From: Pseudemcibacter aquimaris
GTDB lineage: Bacteria > Pseudomonadota > Alphaproteobacteria > Sphingomonadales > Emcibacteraceae
Direction: 5' to 3'
Assembly (NCBI RefSeq): GCF_028869115.1
Contig: NZ_CP079800.1
Span: 1,798,001 to 1,862,000, forward strand
Length of the DNA stretch: 64,000 bases
A program made the position numbers and the translations under genes. Position 1 is the stretch's first letter; every line of letters starts with the position of its first letter. Below the pieces are notes generated by a model. It made no database searches. It worked only from the letters and a program-made list of their open reading frames with translations, and had not been told where the DNA came from. Below, in pieces: positions 7,874-26,623 of this stretch.

Positions 7874-9613
7874 ATGAAAAAACTGATCATTCTAATGGGT
7901 GCCATGGTGCTTGCCGCCTGTGGGTCGGAGCAAACCTCTGCCCCGCCAGCAGCAAACGACACTGAACCCAAGGCCGATATGGTTTTAACCAATGGTAATG
8001 TCTTAACCGTTGAAGAAGACATGCCCAAGGCAGAAGCCATCGCCATTGTCGGGGATAAAATCGCCGCCGTTGGCACAAGCGCCGAAATCGCCGCATGGAT
8101 TGGTGACGATACAGAAGTCATCGACCTGTCCGGTCAAACCGCCATTCCCGGCTTCATCGAAGGGCACGGCCATTACACCAGTTATGGTGACAGCTTTTAC
8201 CGCCTAGAACTTCGTTATGATACAAGCTGGCAAGCCATCGTTGATAAGGTCGAACGCGCAGTAGCGGGCGCAGAACCCGGCGAATGGATTGTCGGTCGTG
8301 GCTGGCATCAGGACAAATGGACCGTTAAGGAAGACATCCTTGTGGACGGTATTCCCGTTCATGATAAACTTTCCGCGGTAAGCCCGAATAACCCGGTGAT
8401 GTTAATTCACACATCCGGTCATGCGGTTTTCGCCAATCAGGCGGCCATGGATGCAGCCAACACCGACGGCAGCACCGTTCCACCAGAGGGCGGCGAAATC
8501 GTTCTTAAGGCGGACGGCACACCATCCGGCATGATGCGCGAAGCGGCACAGGACGCCATCCGCGCGGCGCTTGCGGATTATGAAGCCCTACGCACACCGG
8601 AACAGGCAGAGGCAGAATTACGCCGCGCCATCATTACCGCCGGTGAAGAAAGCCTTAAATACGGCATTACATCGTTTCAGGACCTTGGCACCACATATGC
8701 CGAGGTTGATTTATTAAAGAAAATGGCCGACGAAGGCACCATTCCAGTACGTCTCTGGATGGCGTTTGACATTCCGTATGAAGAGCTCGCCCTGCCCGGA
8801 AAGCTCGAAGAATACCGCATGGTTGGTTATGGTAATAACTTCCTGACCGTGCGCGGCATTGGTGAAAAGGTGCTTGACGGTGCCCTTGGTACCCATGGCG
8901 GCTGGCTCTTGGAGCCATATACAGACATGCCGGAAAGTTACGGCCTTAACGTGGTTCCGGTGGATGACATTAAGAAATCCGCTGATCTTGCCCTTGAATA
9001 TGGTTATCAAATGGCCATTCAGGGGATCGGTGACCGCGCCACGCGTGAACTATTGGATATTTACGGCGCGATTAAAGAAGCCAACCCGGATGCGGACTTA
9101 AGATGGCGTATCGAACACCCGCAAGTGATCCACCCGGATGACATTCCGCGTTTCGCGAAATATGACGTGATCCCCGCGGCGCAGGGCATTTTCGCCTGTT
9201 CCGATGGTGGCTGGGTCGAAGACCGCCTTGGTAAAGACCGCACATTAGAGCGCAGTTACCTGTTTAACACGCTTTATGAAGCAGGCCTGACACCAACAAA
9301 CGGCACTGATCCACCCGTAGACGAGATCGACCCGATCGCAAGTTTCAAATGTTCTGTTACACGCGAACTGTCGGACGGTACCATCTTCCAAGGTGGCGAG
9401 GTCTATACCCGCGATGTGGCCCTTTACAGCTACACCATGGGCAACGCCATCGCCGCGTTCGAAGAAGACATCAAAGGATCGATCAAAGTGGGCAAACTAG
9501 CCGACATCGCAATCCTGTCACAGGATATTACCGCGGTCCCAGATAACGCACTGATGGACACCAAAGTAATGAAAACCATCCTTGGCGGTAAAGTGGTGTA
9601 TGAGAGAGAATAG
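7874..9613 (+). CDS. Lipoprotein amidohydrolase, YtcJ-like
   Basis: A 579-residue member of the amidohydrolase superfamily. The N-terminus has a lipoprotein signal with lipobox LAAC, so the enzyme should be anchored in the envelope. The composite beta-sandwich strand (MVLTNGNVLTVEEDMP...) leads to PGFIEGHGH, the metal-binding HxH motif. Later come IGDRATRELL and RIEHPQVI, typical of the YtcJ group, and a C-terminal VGKLADIAIL strand. The substrate is unknown; relatives hydrolyse amides or carbamates. A strong ribosome site GGGAGG precedes the ATG, 23 bases after parE. A canonical terminator follows at 9639. Confidence 0.88.
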   Translation: MKKLIILMGAMVLAACGSEQTSAPPAANDTEPKADMVLTNGNVLTVEEDMPKAEAIAIVGDKIAAVGTSAEIAAWIGDDTEVIDLSGQTAIPGFIEGHGHYTSYGDSFYRLELRYDTSWQAIVDKVERAVAGAEPGEWIVGRGWHQDKWTVKEDILVDGIPVHDKLSAVSPNNPVMLIHTSGHAVFANQAAMDAANTDGSTVPPEGGEIVLKADGTPSGMMREAAQDAIRAALADYEALRTPEQAEAELRRAIITAGEESLKYGITSFQDLGTTYAEVDLLKKMADEGTIPVRLWMAFDIPYEELALPGKLEEYRMVGYGNNFLTVRGIGEKVLDGALGTHGGWLLEPYTDMPESYGLNVVPVDDIKKSADLALEYGYQMAIQGIGDRATRELLDIYGAIKEANPDADLRWRIEHPQVIHPDDIPRFAKYDVIPAAQGIFACSDGGWVEDRLGKDRTLERSYLFNTLYEAGLTPTNGTDPPVDEIDPIASFKCSVTRELSDGTIFQGGEVYTRDVALYSYTMGNAIAAFEEDIKGSIKVGKLADIAILSQDITAVPDNALMDTKVMKTILGGKVVYERE

Positions 9614-20639: not shown

Positions 20640-21677
20640 TTGATTAGAAAAACAGTAATTACTATTTATTTTTCATTTCTTTTAATTGCGGCTGCTAGTG
20701 CGAACAACGAAATAAAGATTGATTTTTCTTCGAGTAATTTAGAGGAAGTTCGGCCAATTTATGTCCGCTTGCCAGATGGCTATGACAAAGATTCTGATGA
20801 AAAATATCCAACGCTTTATGTTTTAAACAGTAAGGACAATTTTGACTGGTCTTCCTATATCGTTGAATTGCAAGCTTCTAAAAATGCAATAAAAGATATG
20901 GTGATAGTAGGATTGCCGCATATAGGTAATTATTACGATGACCATTACCCGTTCGCAGAAGAAGACAGTTTAATTTCCAGCCCAAGCGCAGCGAAACATT
21001 CATCTTATATCAGAGAAGAGGTAATTCCATATATCGAAAGTAATTATAATGTAAATCAGGGCAGAGTAATTATTGGCCATTCATTAGCAGGTTTATTTGT
21101 TTCCCACTTATATACAGAATATCCTGACTCATTTTCAACCTTCGTTGCGTTAAGTCCTTCCTTCCAACATGCGCCTCAGATGGCAGAGCATTTCCAAAAT
21201 TTCTTCAATAAAAACGAAAAAGTTTCGAGCCAGATTTATATGGCTTTAGGAAAGCTAGAGCACGAAGGAATCCAAGAAGGATATAATCAAATTCGTCAGG
21301 TATTTGCTGATAATGCCTCACAAGATGTGCAGTATTATATTGGATTTATTGAACATACAGATCATCTGCTTGCTGCGTTTCAAGGAACCTATAATGCACT
21401 TGCGTGGCTTTATGCAGATTATACGATCCAATCAGAAATAGCCCGAAGCTATAGTTACGAAGATTATATCGCCCATTATACTGCCCTATCGAACCGATTG
21501 AATTACCCAATCAAGCCACGCGAAAGGCATATGGCGGGATTTGCACAATTCGTTAGCAGGCGAATGGGAGATGTTGAGGCGGGAATAACAGCACTTCGCG
21601 TCGTACTTCATTATTACCCGGAATCAGAATTGGCGAAAAACTTACTGAATGAATTACAAGGAAGCGAGGAGCATTAG
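20640..21677 (+). CDS. Esterase D/enterochelin-esterase-like alpha/beta hydrolase, exported
   Basis: A 345-residue protein starting at TTG 20640, which gives a normal signal peptide (basic MIRK, then a hydrophobic stretch ending SAN). The putative esterase fold is marked by YPTLYVLN near residue 56, the nucleophile elbow GHSLAG (Ser148) and HTDHL, the likely catalytic histidine, near 260. The final 60 residues look helical and TPR-like. It probably hydrolyses an ester or peptide in the periplasm. It may be cotranscribed with the serine hydrolase gene upstream. A second family member is at 55494. Confidence 0.85.
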   Translation: MIRKTVITIYFSFLLIAAASANNEIKIDFSSSNLEEVRPIYVRLPDGYDKDSDEKYPTLYVLNSKDNFDWSSYIVELQASKNAIKDMVIVGLPHIGNYYDDHYPFAEEDSLISSPSAAKHSSYIREEVIPYIESNYNVNQGRVIIGHSLAGLFVSHLYTEYPDSFSTFVALSPSFQHAPQMAEHFQNFFNKNEKVSSQIYMALGKLEHEGIQEGYNQIRQVFADNASQDVQYYIGFIEHTDHLLAAFQGTYNALAWLYADYTIQSEIARSYSYEDYIAHYTALSNRLNYPIKPRERHMAGFAQFVSRRMGDVEAGITALRVVLHYYPESELAKNLLNELQGSEEH

Positions 21678-21910: not shown

Positions 21911-22168
21911 TTAAAATATTTCATTCAACTTTTCATCTCGTTTAGCTTGTGAAATAGCATCCTCGAGATTTGTGAAACGTAAAGTTTTGTACTGATATGT
22001 AGTAACGAGAACACGGTTAATACCGTATTTTTCCATTTCCTTATAGGAATTTAATTCTTTAGTTGTAAAACTTAAACTTGATGTTGGATTATTACCTGTT
22101 AAATCTTTTGAATTTGGTATTTGTTTTTCTGACATTGGGCGCTTTTCTATTAAAGGGGTTTGCGACAC
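21911..22168 (-). CDS. Small protein of unknown function
   Basis: Eighty-five residues from a GTG start, or 74 from the internal ATG at residue 12 (MSEKQIPN), which may be the true start. There is no signal peptide. The first half is polar. The second half reads YGINRVLVTTYQYKTLRFTNLEDAISQAKR, a compact segment that resembles small hypothetical proteins of other proteobacteria, though I cannot name a family. It is on the same strand as the ATP-grasp/cysteine-repeat pair, 126 bases downstream, so it may belong to that locus. Confidence 0.55.
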   Translation of the reverse strand: MSQTPLIEKRPMSEKQIPNSKDLTGNNPTSSLSFTTKELNSYKEMEKYGINRVLVTTYQYKTLRFTNLEDAISQAKRDEKLNEIF

Positions 22169-22294
22169 GGAAATTTAATATATTTTCTTTGATATATCCG
22201 TGAATTTGATAGGCACTCATTAATAAACATTGTGAGTAGGAATTTAGTTAAAGTTCTTGATTGCAATAAAACTCTTTAAATCAGAATTTATAAA

Positions 22295-23107
22295 TCACAT
22301 TATCGAACATAGGTCTTTTACTTTTCTAAATGGCTTATTACATTCCCAATCATTCCCACTATAATCAATATGAGAATTTTCAGGTAAATTAATCACTTCA
22401 CAGGTTTTTCCTACTTCAGAATAACCTCTCTTACACTTCCAACCATTTCCCCTGCCATCATCTTCAAGGTATGCGTTTTCAGGTACTTCTATTGCGATAC
22501 ATCGTTCGCTAATTTGCCTATAACCATGTTTACATTCCCAACCTTGACCAAAAGCGGATTTTTGATAATAGCCATTTTCAGGAACAATGATCTTCCTGCA
22601 TTCGTTATCAACGGACTTATATCCATGCTCACAACTCCATTTCCCCCCAAAAGAGTTATTATCAAGATAAGCATTTTCCGGTAATTCTATTTTTTCACAA
22701 GTGCCATTGTTTTCCAAATAACCACGACTACATTCCCATCCTGAACCGTATTCTGAAGCAGTAAGGTAAGCATTGTTAGGAAGAACTATTGCATTGCAAC
22801 TACCGTTCATTTCTCTATATCCATGGTTACAAGCCCACCCTAATCTAAAAGATGAACCTGTTAGATAGGCGTTATCTGGCGCTATTATTTCTGCACATGC
22901 ATTATCTTTTTTAATGAAACCCGGATTGCAACGCCAGCCATCGCCATAGCTTAATTTCTCAGAATTTTCGGGAACGACATCTAAGGCAGATTGAGCAAAA
23001 GTAGTGTTGCTTATAGCAATTAAAGTCATAAAAACTAATGCATGAAAAATTCTAGCATAAGCATTTGTTTCTAGCTGCAAGCTAGCTAAGTTTGATTTTA
23101 TCTTCAT
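22295..23107 (-). CDS. Exported cysteine-rich protein of seven 33-residue repeats
   Basis: A 270-residue protein. ATG 23107 is chosen over the upstream TTG because GGAAAA sits just before it. A Sec signal peptide ends near residue 39 (TTFAQS). The rest is seven repeats beginning at prolines 46, 77, 110, 143, 176, 209 and 242, five of them exactly 33 residues apart. Each unit has P-(E/D/N)-N, then WxC, then GY/F, then Cys. The fourteen cysteines fall in seven pairs, each exactly 11 residues apart, so one disulfide per unit is likely. The start overlaps the end of the ATP-grasp gene, implying translational coupling. The function is unknown. It could be an extracellular binding or structural protein, or a multi-core substrate of the ATP-grasp enzyme. 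Confidence 0.85.
   Translation of the reverse strand: MKIKSNLASLQLETNAYARIFHALVFMTLIAISNTTFAQSALDVVPENSEKLSYGDGWRCNPGFIKKDNACAEIIAPDNAYLTGSSFRLGWACNHGYREMNGSCNAIVLPNNAYLTASEYGSGWECSRGYLENNGTCEKIELPENAYLDNNSFGGKWSCEHGYKSVDNECRKIIVPENGYYQKSAFGQGWECKHGYRQISERCIAIEVPENAYLEDDGRGNGWKCKRGYSEVGKTCEVINLPENSHIDYSGNDWECNKPFRKVKDLCSIM
22298..22972 (-). repeat. In-gene tandem repeat, 99-base period
   Basis: The DNA encoding the seven cysteine repeats. The period is 99 bases for most units, with protein-level conservation much higher than DNA identity. This suggests old duplications kept by selection. Confidence 0.8.
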
Positions 23108-24092
23108 GATTTTTTCCAATAATATTTATATCAATGTTATGCGATCTTTCAATCGCGCCTTGGATCATGAGGCAAATGAGATCATCATATTCTAAATCCG
23201 CTGCAATTTTACAGGCACGAGGGAAATAACTTGATGCCTGTTTTAGACCGGGAACAAGGTTTGCTTCCATAAAATGACAATTACCATGTTTATCCATTTT
23301 TATATCGATACGACCAAAATCCCTTATACCTAGGGCTTTAAATGAGTTTTTGGCAATTTCCTTAACCATTTTCAGGGTTCTGCCATCAATAATCCTTGAA
23401 AGTATTTCTGAATTTTCTGTTTTAACTTTCGAGCCTAAAATTCTTATACCACCTTCTTTTGGAGGAGTTATTTCAATGGGAATTGCCATTAATCGGCCAC
23501 CGGATGCAATTATAGAAACGGTAAACTCCAATCCATCGAGATACTCCTCGACCAATATTGGCTCCATATATTCTTCGTATAAAGCCTCTACTTTTGCTTT
23601 AAATTCACTAAAATTATAGACTAGAGATTGTCTATCAACGCCATTACCATTTGCTGAACCCGATGGTTTTAAGAATAACGGGAAAGGAAGTGGCAGGTCT
23701 TCAGCGTTTTTATATTGATCAGGCAGGGATGTAAAATATTTGCCCGTTGGTATTTCCTCTGCAGAAACTCTTTCTTTTCCAAGAATCTTATTTGAATCAT
23801 ATTGCAAGGTATTCCTAGCCGATCCTGTGTAACTAATCCCGTGTTTATCAAAAAAATCGCTGAGCCAAATAAATTCCCCGCCCTGAATTATCAAATATTT
23901 TACCGCAAGAACGACAATGTCTGGTTTTCTTTTAACAACAGCTTCAAGGTCGGACGGACCATAGCAAACTGTAACAATTGCAGAATGATTCATTCTTAAT
24001 AAAGAGTGTTTGACATTATTACAGGCATGGAATGGACCAAATCCAGTTTCTTTTAAATTATTATTTATATTCGTAATTATTTCTATATTCAT
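23082..24092 (-). CDS. D-Ala-D-Ala ligase-like ATP-grasp enzyme
   Basis: A 336-residue protein. It has an N-terminal Ddl-type domain (YTGS at 88-91, Lys102), the ATP-binding FLKPSGSANGNGV (Lys142), VEEY at 181-184, and metal ligands Asp263, Glu276 and Asn278. These show the same 13 and 2 residue spacing as E. coli DdlB Asp257/Glu270/Asn272. NLVPGLKQASSYFP matches the Ddl NTxPGMTxxSLFP segment. The Ddl omega-loop motif with its conserved Tyr/Lys is not visible where expected (around 205-225), so the acceptor may not be D-alanine. The housekeeping ddl normally sits in the mur/fts cluster. A 44-codon ORF lies 135 bases upstream, and the cysteine-repeat gene overlaps its 3' end. AAAGGT precedes the ATG. 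Confidence 0.85.
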   Translation of the reverse strand: MNIEIITNINNNLKETGFGPFHACNNVKHSLLRMNHSAIVTVCYGPSDLEAVVKRKPDIVVLAVKYLIIQGGEFIWLSDFFDKHGISYTGSARNTLQYDSNKILGKERVSAEEIPTGKYFTSLPDQYKNAEDLPLPFPLFLKPSGSANGNGVDRQSLVYNFSEFKAKVEALYEEYMEPILVEEYLDGLEFTVSIIASGGRLMAIPIEITPPKEGGIRILGSKVKTENSEILSRIIDGRTLKMVKEIAKNSFKALGIRDFGRIDIKMDKHGNCHFMEANLVPGLKQASSYFPRACKIAADLEYDDLICLMIQGAIERSHNIDINIIGKNHEDKIKLS

Positions 24093-24227
24093 ATGATTAC
24101 CTTTTGTGCAACAATCGTCGCCCGATGTAATAAGAAAATGTTACACCGAACGACAAATAGATTTTTAAAAAGAGGTGCTAATGTCGAAAGCTAATTGCTG
24201 CCGTATTTCACTTCTAACAATTAAACT

Positions 24228-24362
24228 TTAATCTGTTTTAGTATCTTCTTTGGGTTTAGCTTTAGGCTGTATGGGACCATTTTTTTTGAGATCGTTGTTA
24301 TGGTCTTTTGTATTATCGTTGCTTTGAGGTATTTTTGTTCTGAAGAGATCTTTGTAGGACAT
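24228..24362 (-). CDS. Candidate 44-residue peptide upstream of the ATP-grasp gene
   Basis: A short ORF with ATG at 24362, preceded by GAAAGG at good spacing, encoding a hydrophilic 44-residue peptide (start MSYKDLFRTKIPQ, end PKPKEDTKTD-like). It has no signal peptide or cysteine. It is Lys/Asp/Asn/Thr rich and ends in acidic and hydroxyl residues. Its place just upstream of an ATP-grasp ligase invites comparison with ligase-modified precursor peptides, but no known core motif was recognised. The rest of the 24093-24464 gap is AT-rich. On the minus strand a weak promoter-like pair (TTGTAT, 17 bases, ATATAT) precedes this ORF. Confidence 0.45.
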   Translation of the reverse strand: MSYKDLFRTKIPQSNDNTKDHNNDLKKNGPIQPKAKPKEDTKTD

Positions 24363-24464
24363 TATAATGCCTTTCATAAAAGCTACAGGAATATGCAGCT
24401 ATGCTATATATGGGGCTAGTTATTATTAATACAAGGGAAGGCATATTAATAACTGCATGAACTG

Positions 24465-26024: not shown

Positions 26025-26416
26025 AATATTTCCTAGTAAGATAAAAGGTGACCTAAATCGAATAAAAACTTAGACATGTGGAAAAACAAATTCTGTTCAT
26101 GATGATAGTAGACCTTGATGAGTAATTGTCCACGCTTTATTTTTTAATGATCTTTGTTGGTATTCATCTTTACGCAACCTATGTATTCATAATATTAAGC
26201 TATTTTAAGAAAAACATTAATTTGGTTGACATAACATCCAATATAGTATCTAAGCGAAACAAGTTTGAATTATACATTTACTAACGCTTCCATTTCTTTT
26301 TCCAAATTATTTGATTTAGTCTCGGTCGATTGACGTAAGTCTAAATCAGGCGGACAAGCTTGTCCGCGATATCGTGGATAAGCAATTTAATAATTAAGTG
26401 CACAAGGAGAAATATT
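26025..26416 (+). promoter_or_regulatory. Divergent intergenic region with structured leader of the cold-shock gene
   Basis: A 392-base gap between the D-aminoacylase and cold-shock genes. TTGACA at 26226-26231 with TATCTA at 26247-26252 (15-base spacer) is a weak promoter candidate, which would give a leader of roughly 160 bases. In that leader, TGATTTAG (26312-26319) pairs with CTAAATCA (26341-26348). GCGGACAAGCTTGTCCGC (26350-26367) is a perfect 18-base palindrome. A strong AAGGAGA (26404-26410) precedes the GTG. Long structured leaders are known for cspA-type genes, where they act as thermosensors. Confidence 0.5.
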
Positions 26417-26623
26417 GTGGCAACAGGAAAAGTAAAATGGTTTAACCATACTAAAGGGTATGGATTTATCGAAACAGAAGATAGAGGTTCTGATGTTTTT
26501 GTACATATCAGTGCTGTAGAACAATCAGACCTATCGACTTTAAATGAAGGTCAATCAATCAGATTTGAAATTCAGGATAAAGATGGTAAAAAATCTGCTT
26601 ATAATTTACAAGAAACTGCATAA
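26417..26623 (+). CDS. Cold-shock domain protein (CspA family)
   Basis: Sixty-eight residues from GTG 26417, chosen because AAGGAGA lies 6 bases upstream and the product then starts [10 protein letters not shown] as in the family. An upstream in-frame ATG would add residues unlike any Csp. The RNP1 motif reads KGYGFIE and RNP2 reads VFVHIS, both with their aromatic residues for single-stranded nucleic acid binding. It acts as an RNA chaperone in the cytoplasm. It ends at a strong terminator. A DUF1294 gene, often fused to this domain in other bacteria, is 1.9 kb downstream on the same strand. Confidence 0.95.

Follow-up and report, generated by a model that had tools for sequence, protein, structure and literature searches.

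Organization of the locus

Four genes lie on one strand of the window (the whole 64,000-nucleotide stretch of DNA analyzed here, part of a 3.37 Mb host genome in a single contig) between positions 21911 and 24362, and are transcribed on the minus strand in the order MSY, ligase, repeat protein and YGI (Table 1). A preliminary description had listed four ORFs on one strand, the start of the repeat gene overlapping the ligase gene, and a small protein of 74-85 residues. All four were recovered at or near the positions first given and the repeat gene was confirmed to overlap the ligase stop; the small protein has 74 residues, and the 85-residue form is obtained from an upstream GTG without counterpart in relatives. 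The four-gene order and sequence were retained in two further species of the genus (G001 and G004). When the same-genus species were compared, the ligase and the repeat protein had dN/dS values of 0.12-0.18, YGI of 0.18-0.74 and MSY of 0.19-0.46, with fewer sites available for the two small proteins; the first 18 residues of MSY were the most conserved. The preserved order and sequence, together with dN/dS values showing purifying selection in three related species, indicate that all four ORFs look like real genes.

Table 1. Genes of the locus (window coordinates) and members of a further small protein family at other loci; G and L numbers denote genomes and loci
Feature	Position	Strand	Characteristics
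44-aa peptide, 'MSY'	24228..24362	-	MSYKDLFRTKIPQSNDNT..., MSYKDLFRTK...; conserved N-terminus, Lys/Pro/Asp-rich tail
Ddl-fold ATP-grasp ligase, 336 aa	23082..24092	-	divergent subfamily; PF07478, AlphaFold model, structure matches
Cysteine-repeat protein (predicted exported), 274 aa from TTG	22295..23119	-	seven W-x-C...C repeats
'YGI' protein, 74 aa	21911..22135	-	MEKYGI...FRYTxLxDAxxQAKR; predicted helix-hairpin-helix
KSVTFAHPF family	L015:5895-6299, L058:3431-3715, L060:8530-9177, L062:7495-7926 and 8600-9166		
KSVTFAHPF family	L113:7322-7768, L114:8685-9137		L113 member: no Pfam match

No Rfam family was detected in the entire window, no defence family was assigned to the operon proteins by PADLOC, and a promoter/terminator scan of the sequence gave no usable excess over shuffles. 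Several of these genes have in common the start context (M/L)KGxxM, which corresponds to an AAAGG-like ribosome site immediately before the ATG (window 24362-24377; L014:11923; L061:7889; L126:5853; L063:14635). A putative esterase gene (PF00756) adjoins YGI on the opposite strand (window 20640-21677); it has homologues in the ligase neighbourhoods of G052, G076 and G086 but none in that of G004.

The ligase

The best Pfam match of the ligase was Dala_Dala_lig_C (PF07478, E=1.3e-20), and its scores fell far under the cut-off of every NCBIfam Ddl model (89.8 bits vs 243 for NF002378; 73.6 bits vs 245.65 for TIGR01205). The AlphaFold (AF2) model had a mean pLDDT of 83.6, and when it was used in a structure search, the best matches were all Ddl over the whole chain, with Z up to 29.4 and 20-22% identity. 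The ATP/Mg residues (K102, K142, E182, E189, R261, D263, E276 and N278) were kept in 11/11 aligned ligases and, by alignment, in the genome's own Ddl. Both its sequence and its fold place the ligase in the D-Ala-D-Ala ligase group; the Ddl-like ATP-grasp enzyme first proposed was thus borne out by Pfam match, fold and ATP/Mg residues. A canonical ddl is located elsewhere in the same genome, in murB-ddl-ftsQ, and the ligase lies outside the mur cluster. Ddl-group ligases are known chiefly from cell-wall synthesis, plus some antibiotic pathways.

The roles of the Ddl ATP/Mg and D-Ala-binding positions were taken from PMC6899670. The D-Ala-binding set (Glu15/22, His63/70, the Ser-Leu acceptor pair and the omega-loop Tyr) was not found in the ligase. 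When aligned with the genome's own Ddl, the second Glu of SEREVS was replaced by G or N and the His by K65, the Ser-Leu acceptor pair was changed or deleted, and in the omega loop only the Lys was retained (as K224), not the Tyr; the N-terminus and the omega loop, where the model has pLDDT <50, are aligned with less certainty. The replacement residues are themselves conserved within the subfamily (K65-Y66, W76 and Y289-F290-x-R292). Because the ligase retains the ATP/Mg residues but has others in place of those that recognize D-Ala, we infer an enzyme that is most likely an active ligase for substrates other than D-Ala.

The ligase subfamily was rare and patchy. It was found in 6/298 genomes of the order, 5/289 of the class and 3/259 of the phylum (overlapping samples, each count including the window's own genome), with a few more near G799. 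It was also encoded, with no repeat protein, on four IMG/VR contigs of T4-like marine phages (L133:1890-2942; L134-L136:4866-5951). L133 additionally carries a T4-type single-strand binding protein and a DNA end protector; the ligase neighbours on L134-L136 are sugar-aminotransferase, nucleotide-sugar epimerase and glycosyltransferase-like genes, a setting more in keeping with chemistry on small molecules or glycans than with a RiPP. Plasmid matches did not exceed about 30% identity and were distant Ddl or other ATP-grasp proteins. In both G052 copies the ligase is followed by a gene for a PKHD-type 2OG-Fe(II) oxygenase (L011:11644-12210, L012:8764-9258), and a homologue (L049:6497-7060) lies upstream of the G546 repeat protein, which has no ligase.

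The cysteine-repeat protein

The seven W-x-C repeats are ~33 aa each and contain 14 Cys. The true start is more probably a conserved inner ATG at about 23107 than the TTG. The N-terminus resembles a signal peptide ending ...TFA/QS, and export of the protein is predicted. One repeat of the window protein scored 25.5 bits against EGF_MSP1_1 (PF12946), under the cut-off of 27, and a paralogue in G086 scored 29.5 bits, over it; a PDB sequence search gave weak MSP1/EGF similarity only (E=0.08). The six-Cys EGF pattern was not found, each repeat having two Cys.

The repeat protein was present in about 4-17% of the genomes surveyed. Among the loci in its tree, 8/35 had the ligase and 27/35 had none. 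A DEAD-box helicase or CspA gene was directly upstream of 12/35 repeat genes, i.e., more often than the ligase pairing was seen. The repeat gene directly follows cspA at L052, L053, L063, L103 and L012, and a DEAD-box helicase gene at L050, L104, L105, L107, L108, L109 and L112. In a residue comparison, the ligase-linked repeat proteins had no convincing private conserved residue, tail or C-terminal signature. No repeat protein was confirmed in viral contigs by tblastn.

The small proteins

Members of the YGI family were detected in 12/100 relatives from the order and in 10/279 genomes of the class. YGI is close to the ligase in G000, G001, G004, both G052 copies, G076 and G086, and touches it in G052. 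It also occurs with the repeat protein without the ligase (G056, G072, G082 and G558), with the ligase without the repeat protein (G508, where the ligase is 100 bp after the YGI gene), and without either, beside hflKC or nhaA (G337 and G559). YGI proteins adjoin hflK-hflC and/or nhaA at L126, L127, L129, L061 and L062. A folded domain is predicted for the YGI core. Foldseek found no significant match to its model in the PDB, a result that for a small model does not show a new fold.

MSY was present in G001, G004 and G086, and a weaker form adjoins repeat proteins without the ligase in G082 and G010. Downstream of the ligase in G086 is a second cassette consisting of MSY, an eight-repeat protein and its own YGI (L014:11923-14277). 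Beside the G011 YGI gene, L063:8450-8669 is a likely repeat-protein remnant, with an intact copy about 5 kb off. Genes for a further family of small proteins (KSVTFAHPF...GTY...EGLTF) are repeatedly found alongside those for YGI and repeat proteins (Table 1).

Pairing of the ligase with the repeat protein

The preliminary description had asked whether the ligase and the repeat protein co-occur, and had held a ligase found mostly without its partner in relatives to count against the pair. A repeat protein was near the ligase at eight loci in seven genomes (G000, G001, G004, G052 twice, G076, G086 and G799). The ligase was without it in the phages and in seven bacterial genomes (G537, G445, G319, G508, G755, G855 and G910), although the G537 ligase is close to a contig end, so that a downstream partner could be missed. 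The pairing recurs, and the adverse outcome was about half realized.

On the repeat tree, the ligase-linked repeat proteins were spread over four distinct positions, as were the repeat-linked ligases on the ligase tree. Grouping into one clade was rejected for both (p-AU 9.5e-71 and 1.6e-5, respectively); as the AU test presumes groups named before the tree is seen and long branches are present, these p-values are strong, not exact. Each tree needed four state changes. With one origin rejected by both trees and four changes on each, the link is recurrent but not obligate. Three gene orders were observed: ligase then repeat protein, with overlapping genes, in the window clade and G799; repeat protein, YGI and ligase in G052; and repeat protein, an alanine-dehydrogenase-like gene and ligase in G076 and G086. 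Given a repeat protein in about 4-17% of genomes, chance pairing within a few kb would be expected about once in several thousand per lineage; this figure is a rough estimate rather than the outcome of a statistical test. The association is genuine, exceeds chance and arose at least four separate times, but the two proteins are not dependent on each other. Searches of the open-access literature found no account of such a pairing.

In other genomes the partner genes adjoin cspA, DEAD-box helicase, hflKC or nhaA genes, which hints at a role under cold, envelope or other stress. Lone ligases were found after cspA in G319 and G537. However, this setting may be incidental, as neither cspA nor a YGI or repeat gene lies close to the lone ligases of G445, G755, G855 and G910. 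In the window itself, the CspA gene (26360-26623) is encoded on the opposite strand, past another gene.

Interpretation of the locus

The explanation that we prefer, tentatively and at somewhat less than an even chance, is that the ligase is an amino-acid/peptide ligase of new specificity in a variable, possibly stress-linked gene set with the predicted exported disulfide-repeat protein. It would be an ATP-dependent enzyme descended from the D-Ala-D-Ala ligase group that converts a small carboxylic (amino) acid into an activated acyl phosphate and then couples the acyl group to an amine. The product would be a small dipeptide-like compound, not a cross-linked ribosomal peptide. The ligase gene would belong to a loose, often-exchanged neighbourhood with the disulfide-type repeat protein, YGI and the 44-aa peptide, and the ligase product and the repeat protein may act in the same envelope process. 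The catalysis, the small-molecule substrates, the stress setting and the envelope process shared with the repeat protein are all features that we infer. A more specific scheme is an envelope/cold-stress system in which the amino-acid conjugate of a retooled Ddl is used by or attached to the repeat protein, YGI and MSY are cytosolic partners, and the ligase was taken up by T4-like marine phages; we consider this scheme improbable.

The genes could instead share just regulation or a favoured insertion site (e.g., downstream of cspA), with no joint biochemical pathway. Ligase, repeat and YGI genes each adjoin cspA in different genomes, so a shared docking site could yield recurrent pairing. Yet three pairing lineages out of four (window, G076/G086 and G799) lack cspA beside the pair, and their genes still overlap or form one run, leaving this account rather unlikely, if worth keeping in view. 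The independent pairings and the gene overlap would also be expected if the ligase modified the repeat protein before or during export, by an added amino acid or a cross-link, as a protein-tagging system. Such a role agrees poorly with the many repeat loci without a ligase (27/35), with the seven bacterial genomes that have the ligase alone and with the absence of a private residue or C-terminal signature in ligase-linked repeat proteins, and a cytosolic enzyme would be needed to act on a Sec substrate. Its probability is accordingly low.

We give equally little weight to a RiPP-like or RimK-like role, in which the ligase would modify one of the small proteins, YGI or the 44-aa peptide. YGI is near the ligase at the loci named above (G000, G001, G004, both of G052, G076 and G086) and in G508, but none was found near the ligase in G799, G537, G445, G319, G755, G855, G910 or the phages; it often occurs where there is no ligase, e.g., next to hflKC/nhaA, and its core, predicted to be folded, has no GG or repeated core motif. 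Descent from Ddl, and the alanine-dehydrogenase-like gene that adjoins the ligase in G076 and G086, would fit an enzyme making an altered peptidoglycan stem terminus, like the Van ligases, with the repeat protein linked to the cell wall. This is highly improbable given the replaced D-Ala sites, the lack of VanX, VanH or MurF-like genes in the neighbourhoods read and the occurrence of the ligase in T4-like phages.

A graspetide-like enzyme with a dedicated substrate, as originally suggested for this locus, was not supported, because the enzyme is Ddl-type and no candidate precursor is always alongside it; the partners are separable, and the repeat proteins have no ligase-specific residue. In place of a RimK/MvdD-like ATP-grasp, PF07478 was the best Pfam match, and no RimK-type family appeared up to E=1. 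No MSY, YGI or repeat gene was found near the G445, G755, G855 and G910 ligases, and MSY, YGI and repeat genes each occur without the ligase too. Neither a GG site nor a repeated T/S/K-D/E core was seen in MSY or YGI, the YGI core being predicted to fold; this core-motif comparison is weaker than the other graspetide tests because graspetide cores are diverse (PMC8939145).

The locus presents a rare Ddl subfamily of patchy occurrence, whose substrate site is altered and which became associated at least four times with a family of predicted exported proteins. A substrate for the ligase would offer an entry point to four protein families: the repeat protein, YGI, MSY and the KSVTFAHPF small protein.

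Comparison with known systems

The ligase resembles the microviridin-type graspetide synthetases in being an ATP-grasp enzyme with small ORFs and a repetitive protein as neighbours; it differs in being Ddl-type rather than RimK-like, in having no constant precursor and in the absence of a GG site or repeated core. The repeat protein shares with EGF_MSP1_1 (PF12946) the local similarity of one repeat, but it is a bacterial protein, predicted to be exported, with two Cys per ~33-aa repeat against six per EGF domain. The closest relatives are the Ddl enzymes (PF07478, TIGR01205). The ligase differs from these in scoring under the NCBIfam cut-offs, in its replaced D-Ala residues and in its position outside the mur cluster, whereas it has in common with them the whole-chain fold, the ATP and Mg residues and the equivalents of Arg261 and Lys224.
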